Under the pieces are notes generated by a model that was not told the DNA's origin, searched no databases, and saw only the letters and a program-made list of their open reading frames with translations. This document shows positions 263-15,501 of a DNA stretch of 46,735 bases, in pieces. The position numbers and the translations under genes are program-made. Source of the stretch: Acidobacteriota bacterium (lineage in GTDB: Bacteria > Acidobacteriota > Terriglobia > Terriglobales > Acidobacteriaceae); the NCBI GenBank assembly GCA_021793405.1, contig JAJYSV010000031.1, forward strand, positions 1-46,735. The letters are read 5' to 3'. How positions within the stretch are numbered: the first letter of the stretch is position 1; the number at the start of each line of letters is the position of its first letter.

Positions 263-2464
263 CTAAAAGGCAGCCAGCTCCACCATCGCCTTCCGGATGT
301 CTTCCGGCTGCGGCAGAATTTCATCTTCCAGCAGCGGCTGATACGCGACGAACACGTCTTTTGCGGCGATGCGGCGCACGGGAGCATCCAGGTCATCGAA
401 CAATTCCTCTCCGATGCGGGCCGCGATCTCGGCCCCGTACCCCCAGCTGCGCATGTCTTCATACGCCACCAGCGCGCGACTGGTTTTGCGCACGGAGGTT
501 GCAATCGCGTCCCAGTCGTAGGGATTCAGCGTGCGCAAATCGATCACCTCGACATCCACGCCGTTCTCGCGTTCGGCGCGCTGCGCTGCCTGCAAGGCGC
601 GCGGCACTACCGCGCCAAATGTGATCACAGTCAGATGCTTTCCCAGGCGAAGGATACTTGCCTTGCCAAACGGAATCGTGTAGTCGGGGCCTGGATATGC
701 GGCCCGCCCGAACGTCTCGCGATAGAGCCTCTTATGTTCCAAAAAGAGCACCGGGTCGTCGCAACGGATGGCAGTGCGCAGCAGGCCGTTGGCGTCGAGC
801 GCATTCGACGGGTAGACGACCCGCACGCCAGGCGTGTGCGTGAAGATGCTTTCGCCGGACTGCGAGTGATAGATGGCGCCGCCGGTCAGATAGCCGCCCG
901 TGGGCACGCGAATCACTAGAGGACAGGAGAAGATCCCATTGGAGCGCCAACGAATCAGTGGTAGCTCGTTCCGCAACTGGTGCATGGCCGGCCAGATGTA
1001 ATCAAAGAATTGAATTTCGGCCACTGGCTTCAAGCCGCGCGTGGCCATGCCAATCGCACGTCCAACTATATTGGCCTCGGCCAGCGGCGAATTGAAGACG
1101 CGGTCGGAACCGAAGGCGGTCTGCAGACCGGCTGTCAGCTTGAAGACACCGCCCTTGCCCTTCACCAGCCCGCCTTCCAGAATGGTGTCGCGGCTGCAGT
1201 CGGCAACGTCTTCCCCAAACACCACGACGCGTTCATCGCGGCGCATTTCATCGTGCAGACACGCGTTCATCAGATCCGCCATCGTACGCTCGCGAACCGG
1301 GGATGCGGAATCCTCGACGGCCGGCTGCGGCTCCTTGAGTAGAGACAGTGACGTGGGATCGAGGTCCTCGGAATAAATATGAAGATGAATCGTATCCGTC
1401 GAAGGGGGCGCCGCGCGCAGAGCTGCTTCCGTTGCAACCCGAATCTCCTCGTCTACCCCCTGCTCCAGCCGCGTGATGCCCGCCTCATCCAGAAGACCCT
1501 CCCGCAGCAACCGCATCTGCATTTTGGGCAATGGATCGCGCAGGGCGTCGGCCTCGCGCTCTGCCTCCGATCGGTAAAGACGCTCATCGTCGGAAAAAGA
1601 ATGAGCATAGGGACGGACGACATGGCCATGCACGAACGCAGGCCCCTTTCCGGAGCGGCAATACGCCACCGCCTGCCGCAGAATGTTGTAGCACTCGATC
1701 GGCTCGGTGCCATCTACCTCGGCAAAGAAAAAGTTTGGGAAGTTAGCAACGAGTTTTGAGATGTTGCCGCCCGGCGTATTCACCTCGACCGGCACCGAAA
1801 TCGCATAGCCATTGTCTTCGATGACAAACAGCACCGGCAGCTTCAGGTTCGACGCGGAATTCATCGCCTCCCAGAATTCGCCCTCGCTGGTGGCACCGTC
1901 ACCCAGCGAAACATACACCACTTCATCCGCGTGAAAGCAGACATTCTTGAAGGCGCGATAATCCACATCGCCGCCCGTACTGTCCGGCTTCCTGGCGGCT
2001 TTCGGATGGCGACTGAAATAACGTCCCGCTTCGGCGCAGCCGACCGCCTGCAGACATTGCGATCCCGTCGCAGAGGATTGCGTAACGATATGCAGGCTCT
2101 GGCTGGCCCAGTGTGAAGGCATCTGTCGCCCGCCGCTGCTGGGATCGGACGCAGCACCCACGCCCTGCAACAGCATGTCCTCCGCCGTCATGCCCAGCGT
2201 CAGACACAGCGCCCGGTCGCGATAGTACGGATAGAACCAATCATAGCCGGGCTGAAGCGCCATCCCGGCAGCCACCATCAATGCTTCATGTCCAGCGCCC
2301 GAGATTTGGAAAAATATCTTCTGCTGCCGCTTGAGCATGATCTCCCGGTCGTCGATGCGGCGGGAAAGATACATGAGCCGGTACATCTGGATCATTCGCT
2401 CAGACGATATTCTATGCGTATCGACAATCGTTGTTGCGGCGGAAACGGTGCGGGTGACTGCCAT
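263..2464 (-). CDS. 2-oxoacid dehydrogenase E1 component, fused alpha-beta subunits
   Basis: A 733-residue protein joins both halves of the thiamine-diphosphate E1 of branched-chain 2-oxoacid or pyruvate-type dehydrogenase complexes, which decarboxylates the 2-oxoacid and passes the acyl group to E2 lipoyl domains. The N-terminal half has the ThDP motif: GDGATSEG near residues 188-195 and the distal Asn in EDNGYAIS near 218. The beta-type half starts near residue 394 with a FGEDVAD motif and ends with the transketolase C-terminal domain. Fusion of the two halves is known in several phyla; elsewhere they are two genes. I chose ATG 2464 because GAGG precedes it; an ORF reaching 2557 would swallow the promoter. 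No E2 or E3 gene is adjacent, so the substrate (branched-chain versus pyruvate) is unresolved. Confidence 0.9.
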
Positions 2465-2534
2465 GTTGGACCCTCTTTGGATCGGGCTGCTTCGATTGGC
2501 TCTGTCATACGAGGCAATCGTATGGCGACTTTGT

Positions 2535-2564
2535 ATTGTAGCGACCTTCCTATCCACTTGTCAG
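2535..2564 (-). promoter_or_regulatory. Sigma70 promoter of the E1 gene
   Basis: On the minus strand a -35 CTGACA (2559-2564) and a -10 TACAAT (2535-2540) are separated by 18 bases; each matches five of six consensus bases. Transcription would start near 2528, giving a leader of about 60 bases before ATG 2464. Confidence 0.6.
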
Positions 2565-2649: not shown

Positions 2650-2678
2650 TTGACAAAGACTGGGCAATGCAATAGAAG
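2650..2678 (+). promoter_or_regulatory. Sigma70 promoter of the riboswitch-DUF190 transcript
   Basis: A perfect -35 TTGACA (2650-2655) is followed after 17 bases by TAGAAG (2673-2678). The predicted start near 2685 lies about 13 bases before the riboswitch aptamer, the expected geometry for a riboswitch leader. Confidence 0.6.
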
Positions 2679-2697
2679 GAGGATTCAACAGACATTC

Positions 2698-2776
2698 AGG
2701 TGAAGGAGTTCACCTCGAACCGCTGTCCCTACCAATAGGCCGGACATATGATGACTCCTGACAGGGAATCCTGTCG
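2698..2776 (+). ncRNA. Fluoride riboswitch (crcB motif)
   Basis: The RNA follows the fluoride aptamer layout. P1 pairs GGTGA (2699-2703) with TCACC (2710-2714). The loop AGGAGT (2704-2709) can form the pseudoknot with ACTCCT (2754-2759), six perfect pairs. AACCGC follows P1, then a helix TGTCC/GGACA, then the conserved UGAUG directly before ACTCCT. Just downstream, GACAGG (2760-2765) pairs with CCTGTC (2770-2775), and CTCC (2755-2758) with GGAG (2778-2781). That hairpin would compete with the pseudoknot and could be the expression platform. A further inverted repeat, AAACGCGC (2807-2814) with GCGCGTTT (2873-2880) running into seven T, could be the controlled terminator. The ORF served is a DUF190 gene starting at 2982; DUF190 genes commonly neighbour fluoride exporters. 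Confidence 0.82.
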
Positions 2777-2806
2777 CGGAGCTATGCCCCGACCCGATCC
2801 ACTGTA

Positions 2807-2884
2807 AAACGCGCGGCTGCGGGAATTGCCCATGCACTGCTACGCATGATTCGGAGAGCTATGCGCGAACAGGCGCGTTTTTTT
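2807..2884 (+). terminator. Possible riboswitch-controlled terminator in the DUF190 leader
   Basis: AAACGCGC (2807-2814) is complementary over eight bases to GCGCGTTT (2873-2880) and is followed by T to 2884. A nested hairpin CATGC/GCATG (2831-2835, 2844-2848) shortens the enclosed loop. The element sits between the fluoride aptamer and the DUF190 start, about 97 bases before ATG 2982. The remaining part of the 2465-2981 interval shows no other gene. Confidence 0.45.
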
Positions 2885-2981
2885 GAGGCGTCCACCTAAG
2901 TTGTCGTCAGCATCTTCCTCGGGCTCGCCGCGATATGGTGTGGCTCACTGATTGCAGAAATTATCTCGTAACGGAGGGCAT

Positions 2982-3391
2982 ATGTCGCATGCGGGCAAGG
3001 CCGTCAAAGTCACCATTTATGTGAGCGAGGGATCCGAGGGCAAAGCCAAACTGATGCGCATCCGCGTCGACGGCGAAGATAAGTGGAAGAATAAGCCGCT
3101 GCATCAGGCCCTGGTGGAGCCGATGCGCGCCAACGACTTCGCCGGAGTCACCGTATATCGCGGCGCATCCAGGGTTATCGCGGCCATCGGCGTGCCAGCA
3201 GCGACAAGCCGCTACAGCTGTCGCGCGATCAATCCATCATGCTTACCGTGATCGATACGGAAGAAAAGCTGCAAGCGTTCCTTCCGCTCGTCGAACAAAT
3301 GGTGCTGGAAGGTTTGGTGGTACTGTCGGACGTGGATATCATCAAGTATTCGTATCGCGAATTGGATGCGGAGGAACCGGCACGATCCTGA
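2982..3391 (+). pseudogene. DUF190 (PII-like) protein, frameshifted
   Basis: The frame from ATG 2982 (GGAGGG ahead of it) encodes the first part of a DUF190 protein up to the GVTVYRG motif. The frame then runs into unrelated residues and stops at 3251. Reading on in another frame from 3167 restores the rest of the family: GYRGH, a Ser-Arg-Asp segment, a VIDTEEKL motif and VDIIKY near the end, stopping at 3391. The shift is explained by two extra bases GC at 3165-3166, inside GGCGC. DUF190 proteins are small PII-like proteins of unclear function, often found beside crcB. The intact paralogue is next at 3417. The frameshift could be a real mutation or a sequencing error; a working protein of about 135 residues would result if GC were absent. 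Confidence 0.8.
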
Positions 3392-3416
3392 AGCGCGGTA
3401 GCAACGGAGATCGACG

Positions 3417-3776
3417 ATGAAAACGCAATTTGAAGCGCGCATGTTGCGCATCCATTTTGGGGAGGACGATAAGTGTCAAGGCAAGCCGTTGCATGAAGCG
3501 ATTCTCGCCAAGTGTAAAGAGCTGGGCGTTGCCGGCGCCACGGTGTACCGCGGTATCGAAGGCTATGGAACCAGCACCCGGATTCGTCACGCGAATCATT
3601 GGACATTTTCTAAGGATGCGCCCATCATGTGCAGCATCATCGATACAGAGGAGCAAATCGGCAGGCTCATTCCTCATCTCGACAAGATGGTCCAGGAAGG
3701 ACTGATGGCGGTATCTCGCGTCGAGGTGATTCGCTACACCCAGGTTCCAGCAACCACTCCGCAGCAACCTGAGTAA
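3417..3776 (+). CDS. DUF190 (PII-like) protein
   Basis: This intact 119-residue protein has the whole family pattern: KPLHEAIL early, GATVYRGIEGYG in the middle, then CSIIDTEEQIGRLIPHL and VEVIRY near the end. The fold predicted for the family resembles PII signalling proteins; the ligand is not established. An ACGGAG site precedes ATG 3417. It begins 25 bases after the broken paralogue and is presumably on the same riboswitch-controlled transcript, so I infer a role in fluoride response. No fluoride channel gene is visible in this window. Confidence 0.85.
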   Translation: MKTQFEARMLRIHFGEDDKCQGKPLHEAILAKCKELGVAGATVYRGIEGYGTSTRIRHANHWTFSKDAPIMCSIIDTEEQIGRLIPHLDKMVQEGLMAVSRVEVIRYTQVPATTPQQPE

Positions 3777-11263: not shown

Positions 11264-11734
11264 ATGAATTCCAGAGTCGCTGCGCAAGACCCCAACAAGC
11301 CTCTCCATCAGGCCTTAGCCGAGTTCAGGCGCCAGCTACGGAAGTTTTTACTGGCCAGTGAAAACGCTGCATTCGAGGCGGGTCTGCAACCACAACAACA
11401 CCAGCTTCTTCTCGCCGTGGCCGGCGCGCCAGCAGGCCGTTCTCCCTCGATTGCCTACGCGGCAGACACCCTGGGGCTAAAACACAACAGTGCGGTCGAG
11501 TTGGTGGATCGTTGCGAAGGAGAAGGATTGCTCGAACGTGCGGAGGACTCCGAAGATCGACGTCGGGTATGCCTTCGGATTACACCGCGCGGTCGGAAGC
11601 TTCTTGACCGCCTGTCGCACGTTCATTTATTGGAACTCAATTCGCAGGGGCCGCAATTGATCGAATCGCTCGAAAACGTTTTGCGAAACCAGCACCGGCA
11701 ACGCAAGCGTACCGGCAGAAAACAACTTGGATAA
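11264..11734 (+). CDS. MarR family transcriptional regulator
   Basis: A 156-residue winged-helix regulator. It has the MarR pattern: QPQQHQLLLAV, then a helix-turn-helix with LGLKHNSAVELVDRCEGEGLL and the wing EDSEDRRRVCLRITPRGRKLL. ATG 11264 lies eight bases after the promoter -10 and ten after the operator palindrome, with no Shine-Dalgarno sequence, consistent with leaderless translation. I infer self-repression through that palindrome. The ClC channel gene starts ten bases after its stop, so it is probably co-regulated. The ligand is unknown. Confidence 0.88.
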   Translation: MNSRVAAQDPNKPLHQALAEFRRQLRKFLLASENAAFEAGLQPQQHQLLLAVAGAPAGRSPSIAYAADTLGLKHNSAVELVDRCEGEGLLERAEDSEDRRRVCLRITPRGRKLLDRLSHVHLLELNSQGPQLIESLENVLRNQHRQRKRTGRKQLG

Positions 11735-11744
11735 GAGAGCCGCG

Positions 11745-13544
11745 ATGGCCGAAACTACAGCGACAAAACCGAATGTAAAGTTAGGCGCTCGACTCATTGA
11801 GCATCCGCTCCTCCGCAAGTATTTTCCCATGGTCTCTGAAGACCTGGCAGCCACCTATACGCGAGATCTGCATAAGTGGCTGCTCATCGCGCCCATCATC
11901 GGTATTACGACGGGTCTGGCAGTCACTGCCATCGCCATCGTTATCCTGAAGAAACTTTGGCCCCCGCTGCTGCAATGCTTTCTGCGCCATCCCTGGACAA
12001 TTCTCCCTATTATGACGGCGGCATTTGCGGTCACGGGTCTCATTATGCAATTTTTGACGCCCGATCCAGACGAACATTCGACAGAAGAAATTATCCGTTC
12101 CTACCATGAGCATCAGGGCGACATCGAGGTTCGTTCATTCTTTCCGAAAATATTGGCGGCCATCACCACGGTTGGATTTGGCGGCAGCGCGGCGCTCGAA
12201 GGCCCCAGCATTTACGGGGGGGGAGCCATTGGATCGTGGCTGTGGACGAAGTTGCGGCGCGTTCGACTAGAGCCACGAGACCGTCGCATCATGCTGATCA
12301 GCGGAGCCGCAGCCGGCATGGCAGCCGTGTTTCGCGCGCCCATGACCGGTCTCGTCTTTGCGCTGGAAATGCCCTACAAAGATGACCTTGCGCATGAGGC
12401 GTTGCTGCCCTCTCTGATCGCCTCAGTCGTTTCTTACGTGACACTGGCATTCTTTCTTGGCGCCACTCCACTGTTCGACTTCGCCAGCGCTACCTCCTTC
12501 ACCGGCCGCGATCTGCTATGGTGCGCGTTGCTCGGGGTTCTTATCGGGCTGATCGCCATGGCCTTCACCATCACCTTTCGCCGCACGCGCGTTTTCATGG
12601 TTCACTGGCCCATCCCGCATTGGCTCAAGCTGACCATGGGCGGCTTTCTTACAGGAGTTTGTGGACTCGCATTCCTGTCGATGTATCACGGATCTCTGGT
12701 TCCTCTGGGCCCGAATTACGAGGCGGTCGGAGAAATTCTCGGTCACCATCATGGCTCGCTGGAACTGGTCGTCTTCGGGGTGCTCAAGCTTGCCGCAACG
12801 CTTTGTACCCTGGCCAGTGGCGGCGTCAGCGCAATGTTCGTTCCTCTATTTCTGACTGGAGGCAGCTTTGGGACCGCCTTTGCCCAGTCGATTGTTCATT
12901 CAAATTCTGTTGAGCTATACGCCGCGGTTGGCATGGCGTCTTTTATCGCTGCGGGATACAAAACACCGCTGGCCGCAGTCGTCTTCGTTGCCGAAGCCAC
13001 AGGCGGCCATGCCTTCATCGTCCCGGCTCTCATCGGCGCCGCCGTTGCTTACGCGATTTCCGGCGAGGCATCCGCATCCGGCGATCAGCGTCTGCACGAA
13101 GGCGTGCGCATCCATGAACTAAAGAATATTTCGGTGGCGGAAGTGATGCAGCAAAGCGTGGTTTCCGCCGTGGCCTCCTCGACTTTGCGTGAATTTGCGG
13201 ACGACGTTAGCAGACATCACAGGCACATTGCATTTCCCGTTTTGAAAGATGGTGCCATTGTTGGAATCATGTTGGTTTCGTCGCTGGGGAGCATTCCTCC
13301 CCGGGAGTGGACAATCAGGAAGGTTGAAGACGTCGCCGAAAGAAATATCAAGAAAATCCCCCCCGATTGCGACGTTGCGGAAGCCCTGCGGCTGCTGCTC
13401 AGCGAGCAGGACTATCACATGCTTCTCGTGACTTCCGAGGATGGCAACCTGACAGGCATTTTGACGAAGACCGACATTTTGTCAGCCTTGAAGATGCGCG
13501 GCGGCGGAGCCAAAGAGCTGGCGTATGAGCCCGCTAGCACTTGA
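11745..13544 (+). CDS. ClC family chloride channel/transporter with CBS domains, divergent filter
   Basis: A 599-residue membrane protein with the ClC fold followed by a C-terminal CBS pair (about residues 465-590, ending in LLVTSEDGNLTGILTKTDIL). The gating-glutamate motif is present as ALEGP (Glu152) and the third motif as SGGVSAMFVP. The first selectivity motif, GSGIP in the best known members, is missing: the equivalent stretch reads HSTEEI (111-116). Ion specificity is therefore uncertain. ATG 11745 is preferred; a TTG at 11727 would overlap the MarR gene. Confidence 0.85.
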   Translation: MAETTATKPNVKLGARLIEHPLLRKYFPMVSEDLAATYTRDLHKWLLIAPIIGITTGLAVTAIAIVILKKLWPPLLQCFLRHPWTILPIMTAAFAVTGLIMQFLTPDPDEHSTEEIIRSYHEHQGDIEVRSFFPKILAAITTVGFGGSAALEGPSIYGGGAIGSWLWTKLRRVRLEPRDRRIMLISGAAAGMAAVFRAPMTGLVFALEMPYKDDLAHEALLPSLIASVVSYVTLAFFLGATPLFDFASATSFTGRDLLWCALLGVLIGLIAMAFTITFRRTRVFMVHWPIPHWLKLTMGGFLTGVCGLAFLSMYHGSLVPLGPNYEAVGEILGHHHGSLELVVFGVLKLAATLCTLASGGVSAMFVPLFLTGGSFGTAFAQSIVHSNSVELYAAVGMASFIAAGYKTPLAAVVFVAEATGGHAFIVPALIGAAVAYAISGEASASGDQRLHEGVRIHELKNISVAEVMQQSVVSAVASSTLREFADDVSRHHRHIAFPVLKDGAIVGIMLVSSLGSIPPREWTIRKVEDVAERNIKKIPPDCDVAEALRLLLSEQDYHMLLVTSEDGNLTGILTKTDILSALKMRGGGAKELAYEPAST

Positions 13545-13671: not shown

Positions 13672-15501
13672 ATGGCCGACTTATCTGACTCCAATACTAC
13701 GGTCCCCGCCGATGAAAAGCTGTCTAAGAAAGGCTTCTTCGGCGTGGCCCTGGAGCCGGAAGTCGTCAAAGTGTCTGCTTACGCGCTTCTGGTGGGCCTG
13801 ATTGGGGGCCTAGTTGCGCAAGGGCTGCTGGAACTCATCTACCTCTTTACCAACATATTCTTTTACGGCAGGCTGTCGTTCGCCATCACCTATCCGGCTC
13901 ACAATCATCTTGGTCTGTGGGTCATCCTCATTCCTCCTATTGGCGGGTTGGTCGTTGGTTTTATGGTCCATTACTGGGAACCGACGCTGAAGGGTCATGG
14001 CATTCCAGAAGCCATGGAAGCTGTTCTTTTTGGCCAGAGCCGAATGCGCTTGCGTGTTGCGATTCTGAAGCCTCTCGCCACCGCGTTCGCCATTGGTACC
14101 GGCGGACCTTTTGGGGCGGAGGGTCCCATCATTCAAACCGGAGCGGCCTTTGGGTCGCTGTTCGGGCAAGCCATCGGTCTCTCGCCGTATTACCGGCGCG
14201 TTTTGCTGGCTGCCGGTGCAGCGGCGGGCATGGCGGCTACGTTTACAGCTCCCCTTGCGGGGATTCTGGTAGCAGTGGAGCTTTTGCTGTTTGAATTTCG
14301 TGCGCGCTCCTTCATTCCAGTCGCGTTCGCCGCTGCTGTGGCCACGAGCGTGCGCATTCACTTTGCGGGGTGGACTCCGCTGTTTCCAACGCCCGCTTTT
14401 AAGCTCGTCAACATGAATGAACTATGGCTGTTCGCGCTGATGGGCATTTTGATGGGCGTGATCGGCATCGCCATGATTCGCTCCTTGTTCTGGCTGGAAG
14501 AATTCTTCGATCATTTACCCATTCGACGTCCGCTTATCTGGGCGCCCGCCATTGGCGCATTGATTCTCGGCGCGATCGGATATTTTTATCCGCAGGTGTT
14601 TGGCACCGGATACGACACCATTCGCAGCATGTTGAATGACCGCCTCACGGTCGCGAATTTGATTGGCATTTCGGTGGCGAAGTTCTGGGCCTTGGTGATC
14701 TCTCTCGGCTCAGGCACCACGGGCGGTGTGTTTGCTCCATCATTGATTGATGGCGGCGGCATTGGCGCAGTCTACGCAATGTTCTGGCAGCATTTCTTTC
14801 CCCACTTCGTAAGCGACCCGGCCTTTTATTCGCTGGTGGCCATGGCCGCGGTCTTTGCCGGCATCGCGCGCGCACCGTTCACCAGCATTGTGTTTTTGTT
14901 TGAGTTGAGCCACAATCCGAATTCCTTGTTGCCGCTCATCGTCTGCGTCATGGTTGCCGACGGATTCGTGCGCCTGTTCAGTCCAGACTCGATCATGACC
15001 GGCAAGCTAGTGAAGCGCGGACTGATTGTGTTGCAGGACTACTCCGTGCCAGTGCTGATGCGCGCGCGGATTGACGAGGTCATGCATAAGAATTTCAGCG
15101 TCATCCCCGCAGACGCCGAGCTAAGGACAGTCCTGCGCGACTTTGCGCCGCAGGGGCTGGATTTACTTCCCGTTGTCGAGTCAGATGGATCTCTGGTCGG
15201 CATCGTCGAATCCCACGATCTTCTGCGGGTTGAGCCTCCCGATCATCACTTCAAAATGCGGGAACTGGCGCGGAAGGATTACGTGTTGGCCCATCCTGGC
15301 GAACTGGTTGACCGGGTAAGCCGAAGCATGTTGTTGCAGGATGTCGAGAACGTGATCATCGTGGAGCCGCACGGAATTTTAAAACCGATCGGAATCGCGC
15401 GCGCGAATGACATCCTGCAACTGCGGCGATGGTTGGTAGACGAAGAAAGCAAGGGATTGCCCAGAGACTGGAAAGGCAACGAGAAGGGAGGGGGTCAATA
15501 G
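13672..15501 (+). CDS. ClC family chloride channel/transporter with CBS domains
   Basis: A 609-residue ClC protein with about ten or more membrane segments and a C-terminal CBS pair (about residues 460-590). All three filter motifs are recognisable: GHGIPE (108-113), GAEGP with the gating Glu150, and GTTGGVFAPSL. The His in GHGIP stands where Ser (chloride) or Pro (nitrate) is usual. GGAGG precedes the ATG. It lies 127 bases after the first ClC gene and differs from it throughout, so it is not a recent duplicate. Confidence 0.9.
   Translation: MADLSDSNTTVPADEKLSKKGFFGVALEPEVVKVSAYALLVGLIGGLVAQGLLELIYLFTNIFFYGRLSFAITYPAHNHLGLWVILIPPIGGLVVGFMVHYWEPTLKGHGIPEAMEAVLFGQSRMRLRVAILKPLATAFAIGTGGPFGAEGPIIQTGAAFGSLFGQAIGLSPYYRRVLLAAGAAAGMAATFTAPLAGILVAVELLLFEFRARSFIPVAFAAAVATSVRIHFAGWTPLFPTPAFKLVNMNELWLFALMGILMGVIGIAMIRSLFWLEEFFDHLPIRRPLIWAPAIGALILGAIGYFYPQVFGTGYDTIRSMLNDRLTVANLIGISVAKFWALVISLGSGTTGGVFAPSLIDGGGIGAVYAMFWQHFFPHFVSDPAFYSLVAMAAVFAGIARAPFTSIVFLFELSHNPNSLLPLIVCVMVADGFVRLFSPDSIMTGKLVKRGLIVLQDYSVPVLMRARIDEVMHKNFSVIPADAELRTVLRDFAPQGLDLLPVVESDGSLVGIVESHDLLRVEPPDHHFKMRELARKDYVLAHPGELVDRVSRSMLLQDVENVIIVEPHGILKPIGIARANDILQLRRWLVDEESKGLPRDWKGNEKGGGQ

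Follow-up and report, generated by a model that had tools for sequence, protein, structure and literature searches.

A fluoride-riboswitch leader ahead of DUF190 in an Acidobacteriota genome probably belongs to an eroding copy of a fluoride-island operon

On an Acidobacteriota contig (JAJYSV010000031.1, assembly GCA_021793405.1), a leader resembling a fluoride riboswitch stands ahead of DUF190 genes, and a sequence-only reading had described it as serving two DUF190 proteins without crcB or a CLC-F exporter. Is this locus an operon designed around DUF190, or what is left of another one? We addressed this question in the whole stretch of 46,735 nucleotides (hereafter the window), in the rest of the genome and in related genomes. 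At the 5' end of the leader, the promoter claimed previously was recovered in part: a perfect TTGACA is present at 2650-2655 (+), but the element lying 17 nt further on is a poor -10, TAGAAG (2673-2678), and the pair was absent from the output of the promoter scan. By eye, paralogous enolase leaders also have TTGACA, with TAAAAG or TACAAG 17-18 nt downstream. Using the Rfam model of the crcB RNA motif (RF01734), we observed a match at 2690-2767 (+) of 28.7 bits, with an E value of 6.2e-6 in a scan of 621 nt and of 1.1e-5 when the whole 4.6-Mb genome was searched. This score is significant, so that the non-significant covariance score named beforehand as refuting the riboswitch call did not occur, but it falls under the curated gathering score of 34 bits, and no RF01734 match was obtained at the gathering threshold across the whole window. 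A covariance model built from 29 other aptamers (R1, which excludes the window leader and includes its paralogue L005) gave 39.8 bits at the same positions (E 8.7e-9, 511 kb searched). Moreover, the same genome encodes two paralogues of the leader, the enolase leaders of contigs C134 (90.2% identity over 102 nt) and C28 (89.4% over 94 nt), and each of these two leaders reaches 39.6 bits with RF01734, above the gathering score. A chance resemblance, with no riboswitch at all, would fit the lack of a match at the gathering threshold, but it is hard to reconcile with the E value in the 4.6-Mb search or with such identity to above-threshold leaders that have fluoride-island genes behind them; we give it practically no credence and regard it as ruled out by homology. 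Judged by this homology, the leader is a true fluoride-leader paralogue, even though it scores below the threshold.

To describe the aptamer, we aligned 15 leaders, 14 of them distinct, and counted pairs on structures drawn from the window row. P1 (2699-2702/2711-2714), the pseudoknot (2705-2710/2753-2758) and P3 (2723-2728/2742-2747) were paired in 97.8% of cells over the 14 distinct leaders, and the two strands of the pseudoknot form pairs in each of the 15 rows. In the window leader, 4/4 P1 pairs and 6/6 pseudoknot pairs form, one of them as G-U. P3, next to the UGAUG strand, keeps 5/6 pairs, its basal pair being C2723-U2747 whereas the other 14 rows have C-G. The pseudoknot register was set by the numbering of known aptamers, which we take to be transferable and which presumably makes A2751 the equivalent of A40 and U2759 that of U48. 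The six-pair pseudoknot proposed earlier at 2704-2709/2754-2759 was correct in its strands but presumably not in its register; its extra pair A2704-U2759 would consume the U48-equivalent base. In known fluoride aptamers, U48 and A40 form the linchpin pair (PMC8752731), and both letters are kept in the window leader (A2751 and U2759 in the RF01734 alignment). Folding of the whole leader (z -1.10) gave no support by itself. The fluoride-aptamer layout reported from the sequence is borne out by the RF01734 match and the paralogue identity, with a score below the gathering cut-off and a broken basal P3 pair as reservations. These same two features, the second found in the window row only, would suit a leader that has become a passive remnant and no longer senses fluoride. 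However, the pseudoknot, P1 and linchpin letters are kept, R1 gives 39.8 bits, and island leaders ahead of intact genes score lower with RF01734, such as the one before the dynamin-like gene of C28 (26.8 bits); we therefore consider a passive leader unlikely. Among the aligned leaders, only that of the phosphoesterase gene (23.2 bits) scores below the window leader.

A second structure overlaps the aptamer. A rival hairpin at 2752-2784 (+) takes the 3' strand of the pseudoknot by pairing ACTCC with GGAG, with GACAGG/CCTGTC as inner stem. Its 13 pairs were paired in 95.5% of cells over the 14 distinct leaders, compared to 35-46% in slid controls, and five pairs showed changes on both sides, a number reached by 2 of 500 shuffles. 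At 2754/2782, the weakest of these pairs, 5 of the 13 distinct rows with letters there have A-C, the window row being one of them. Because both use the same ACTCC strand, the hairpin and the pseudoknot are mutually exclusive, and the hairpin is the presumed expression platform. When fluoride is absent, it would sequester the 3' pseudoknot strand and hold expression down; fluoride with Mg2+ would stabilise the pseudoknot, free the downstream strand and raise expression. Directly behind the platform we found no T-run and no ribosome site at a suitable position, and the off step could therefore depend on Rho, on leader translation or on another process. A terminator-like hairpin with a T-run is present further on, at 2861-2884, upstream of the DUF190 gene. 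A switch through an upstream ORF was rejected for the window leader, whose ATG at 2784 is only 2 nt after GGAG. Other leaders of the genome differ in this region. By eye, the ACTCC strand of the C28 dynamin leader is complementary to GGAGGAGT before the start codon, and its sequence reads like a translational switch. In the phosphoesterase leader (L009:3990-4085), the pseudoknot strands have co-changed, from A-U to G-C at pair 2707/2756; its rival strand is GGGGAGTC, with which GACCCC could pair only if an A is bulged, appearing as one mismatch in the fixed alignment. In the MutS leaders (L009:12420-12505 and L011:2550-2635, with flanks), the ATG behind GGAG opens by eye an ORF whose stop adjoins or overlaps the MutS-like start codon, a possible translational coupling.

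We then analyzed the genes behind the leader. A tblastn search with the C134 CrcB protein recovered its C-terminal 20 residues at 2909-2968, 14/20 identical (E 1e-8 in a search of 801 nt, and 8.5e-5 when searched among 30 loci). The locus has no intact crcB and only the last 20 codons and the stop remain (2909-2971, +). Searching the genome with PF02537, we found two crcB genes, on C28 and C134. The description of the locus as lacking crcB consequently overlooked both this relic and the genes elsewhere. The first of the two reported DUF190 proteins also proved not to be encoded intact: its gene is a broken tandem-DUF190 gene (2982-3391, +), composed of a short ORF from an ATG (2982-3251) and a remainder in another frame (3167-3391). 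Compared to the C28 copy, 318 bp (106 codons) are missing in frame at 3034/3035 (L009 18537/18218), the reading frame shifts near 3165 and an internal stop is present. PF02641 gave no full-length match on it, only two partial ones of 33.3 and 50.1 bits, each in its own frame. The frameshift may be a sequencing error, but this would leave the 318-bp loss and the crcB stub unexplained. The pieces of the broken gene show dN/dS values of 0.126 and 0.139 against C28, with dS > 1, suggesting that they were under selection until recently. Only the next gene (3417-3776, +; 119 aa) is intact. Its product matches PF02641 with 113.7 bits (cut-off 23.4) over profile positions 2-97 of 97, and the P-II profile with 27.1 bits (cut-off 25). 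Its dN/dS is 0.078 against the C28 copy and 0.087 against the C134 copy, with dS > 1 and near saturation, and 0.078-0.119 against the 5 of 9 copies for which dS is estimable. It departs from 2 of the 48 positions invariant in orthologues, the same number as G003a and G006. The low dN/dS across both DUF190 genes, which weighs against the erosion reading, indicates a copy that was long kept by selection and broke late. Decay is certain in the case of crcB and of the first DUF190 gene, but not in that of the second one.

The source of these pieces became apparent in the rest of the genome (4.6 Mb, 137 contigs, the window being contig 7). We observed 14 RF01734 matches at E <= 1e-3, 9 of them above the gathering score: seven on C28, three on C26, three on C134 and one in the window. 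The next highest of 60 relatives has 6. The list ran to E 10, where 14/14 control genomes also match, and only E <= 1e-3 was used, a level at which 4/14 control genomes still match. C28 (L009, L010) carries a fluoride island, and C134 (L012) and C26 (L011) hold second copies of parts of it, with 82-94% identity by segment. On C28, aptamers precede enolase and a dynamin-like gene, behind which come crcB, one tandem-DUF190 gene and one single DUF190 gene. They also precede hydrogenase/complex-I-like genes, a pyrophosphatase gene, an MFS gene, MutS-like genes and a phosphoesterase gene; a cyclopropane-fatty-acid-synthase-like gene follows the last of these and, two genes on, another dynamin-like gene. 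The island crcB and DUF190 genes stand behind aptamers of the same family as the window leader. Taken together, these results make it very probable that the window carries a further, eroding copy of the island operon, whose order is enolase-type leader, enolase, dynamin-like gene, crcB, tandem DUF190 and DUF190. In this copy, the leader now lies directly ahead of the crcB stub, the broken tandem-DUF190 gene and the one intact DUF190 gene.

The same site was compared in a same-genus set of 10 genomes, including the present one (G000), four of which have the neighbouring kduD at E <= 1e-80. In G009 (KduD 94% identical), only the last 36 residues of DUF190 are found before kduD, on a contig that starts 334 bp before them. 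In G008 (KduD 85% identical), about 360 bp separate the dehydrogenase match from that of kduD, and neither DUF190 nor a leader is present. For G006 (KduD 85%), the 1.5 kb before kduD gave no match to the dehydrogenase, DUF190, CrcB or dynamin proteins. R1 detected no aptamer on the kduD stretches of these three genomes. Fuller arrangements were present elsewhere: leader-crcB-DUF190 in G002, where the contig ends, leader-dynamin remnant-crcB-DUF190s in G006 and leader-dynamin-crcB-DUF190s in G004 and G007. We reject a purpose-built crcB-free DUF190 operon on three grounds: the stub of crcB, the damage to the tandem gene and what G009 and G008 retain at the orthologous site; "DUF190 without crcB" is, at the window locus, erosion and not design. 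A CLC exporter behind the leader was likewise discarded, none being present in the cluster.

Could the eroded copy still work as a slimmed-down fluoride operon? The RNA would then switch on one PII-like DUF190, acting in trans on the island CrcB or on another fluoride-stress target. The intact gene 3417-3776 with its low dN/dS agrees with this, as do arrangements in other genomes. At three loci (L171, L193 and L031 of G042), an aptamer lies directly before DUF190 with no CrcB between; in L171 a Na/H exchanger is encoded next, and in L193 a MutS-like gene accompanies a divergent aptamer. DUF190 is preceded by an aptamer at 89 nt in G046 and at 81 nt in G048, with crcB behind DUF190 in both, and a 6-kb stretch of G043 contains a DUF190 cassette but no CrcB, with fluoride aptamers beside it. 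However, L171, L193 and L031 are all cut by contig ends, the sister genome G009 keeps just the tail of the DUF190 gene, and the window aptamer, alone of 15 in its broken basal P3 pair, has a lower-scoring counterpart in the alignment only in the phosphoesterase leader. The terminator-like hairpin and T-run at 2861-2884 also stand ahead of the gene. On balance, a working slimmed-down operon seems to us possible but doubtful.

Since the earlier reading had placed the DUF190 family directly under fluoride control, we examined DUF190 neighbourhoods more widely. Among 61 genomes including the present one, DUF190 is matched in 36 and RF01734 in 44. Taking in all 77 DUF190 rows, a same-strand RF01734 match lies upstream of DUF190 within 2 kb in 25/40 contigs and within 5 kb in 30/40; without the present genome, the counts are 24/37 and 27/37. 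In the 30 loci of this search, CrcB is a same-strand neighbour of DUF190 in 21. The nine others are the window, the G009 relic, three loci cut by a contig end (L022, L031, L039), and those of G043, G045, G047 and G039; no CrcB was found in the 6-, 5- and 8-kb stretches around the DUF190 genes of G043, G045 and G039, respectively. As a separate observation, the DUF190 cassettes of L200 (G043), L201 (G039), L202 (G045) and L031 (G042) lie close to dynamin-like genes and to fluoride aptamers, with no CrcB found in the stretches covered. In a phylum sample, 51/149 genomes have DUF190. Of the 30 loci obtained from it (L090-L119), 29 have CrcB next to DUF190 on the same strand, as scored with a CrcB model trained on ORFs from those same loci, and 5 have an RF01734 match, above the gathering score in 4 of them. 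In named genomes, we took the best 80 of 560 confirmed DUF190 loci; 74 of them have a same-strand CrcB, adjacent in 72. The count of 74 is biased upward by this choice of the best loci, by the share of Bradyrhizobium and by a query drawn mostly from crcB-linked loci. An aptamer is upstream in 35 of these 80, 22 of them from Bradyrhizobium. This set of 80 consists largely of Planctomycetota, Verrucomicrobia and Bradyrhizobium (23), with two loci titled Blastocatellia or Acidobacteria; excluding Bradyrhizobium, CrcB is present in 51/57 and an upstream aptamer in 13/57. Taken side by side, these counts indicate that the primary association of DUF190 is with crcB, and its secondary one with the riboswitch. 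Overall, the link between DUF190 and fluoride holds in general, although the window locus is not the purpose-built crcB-free operon it had appeared to be. The literature searched yielded no mention of a DUF190-fluoride link, nor of PII-like proteins joined with CrcB.

To which function does this association point? An AlphaFold model of the 3417-3776 product as a single chain has a mean pLDDT of 78.2, with residues 49-66 below 50. Its Foldseek matches were PH1503 (2dcl) and TM0021 (1o51), then CPII (E 4.5e-6) and the SbtA-SbtB complex (1.0e-4). The full-length profile match and the predicted fold agree with the DUF190/UPF0166/COG1993 family (PF02641) to which these first two structures belong; unlike the window gene, which lies behind a fluoride leader, 1o51 and 2dcl have entry titles without a fluoride role. 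With the PII-like regulators SbtB, CPII and GlnK, DUF190 shares the predicted fold and a gene that is mostly beside that of a membrane transporter, but it is a different sequence family, and the fold is here that of a predicted single chain. These PII-like matches of the model suggest that DUF190 is a transporter regulator. AmtB is controlled by a PII-type protein. Most likely, DUF190 would tune CrcB as PII-type proteins tune AmtB or SbtA; to our knowledge, protein-level control of a Fluc channel has not been reported. The window DUF190 could act only in trans on the island CrcB, or is being lost. A more specific version is conceivable, although we hold it to be less likely than not: DUF190 would be a dedicated PII-like regulator, a trimer sensing the fluoride state of the cell through a nucleotide or metal-fluoride ligand and gating or assembling CrcB (Fluc) as SbtB does with SbtA. 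In some lineages it would lack an adjacent crcB, standing directly behind the riboswitch or by dynamin-like GTPases, and the DUF190 of the window would be such a trans-acting unit. A PII-like regulator has already been guessed, in a passage of PMC3543383, for DUF190 adjoining other channel-like genes of Pelobacter.

Compared to known systems, the window leader shares with the fluoride riboswitch (RF01734) P1, the pseudoknot, the UGAUGACUCCU core and a position upstream of fluoride-resistance genes; it differs by its sub-threshold score, its broken basal P3 pair and the crcB stub and DUF190 genes behind it. The FRM operon of Enterobacter cloacae is ppaC-uspA-eno-gpmA-crcB-orf5249, with eno, ppaC and crcB among the genes named in PMC5533749. 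The gene sets of the crcB motif named in PMC2864571 include mutS and formate hydrogen lyase, and the review PMC11139923 names enolase, pyrophosphatase and formate hydrogen lyase among others. The island matches these sets in its enolase, pyrophosphatase, crcB, MutS-like and hydrogenase/complex-I-like genes behind aptamers. It differs in adding dynamin-like GTPases, DUF190s, the cyclopropane-fatty-acid-synthase-like gene and the MFS gene, and the window copy has lost nearly all of the set. By itself, the window locus is of minor importance and illustrates the erosion of a duplicated fluoride operon. More broadly, DUF190, a widespread family of unassigned function, has a positional link to fluoride defence in several phyla, and the fold it shares with regulators of membrane transporters raises a testable question, namely a PII-like control of the Fluc channel.

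Two further observations concern the rest of the window. Two adjacent CLC-family genes are present at 11727-13544 (605 aa) and 13672-15501 (609 aa), with no aptamer nearby according to Rfam at the gathering threshold or R1. On the other side of the leader, a 764-aa gene at 263-2557 (-) combines E1 dehydrogenase, transketolase pyrimidine-binding and C-terminal domains, and its product resembles a fused alpha-beta 2-oxoacid dehydrogenase E1.
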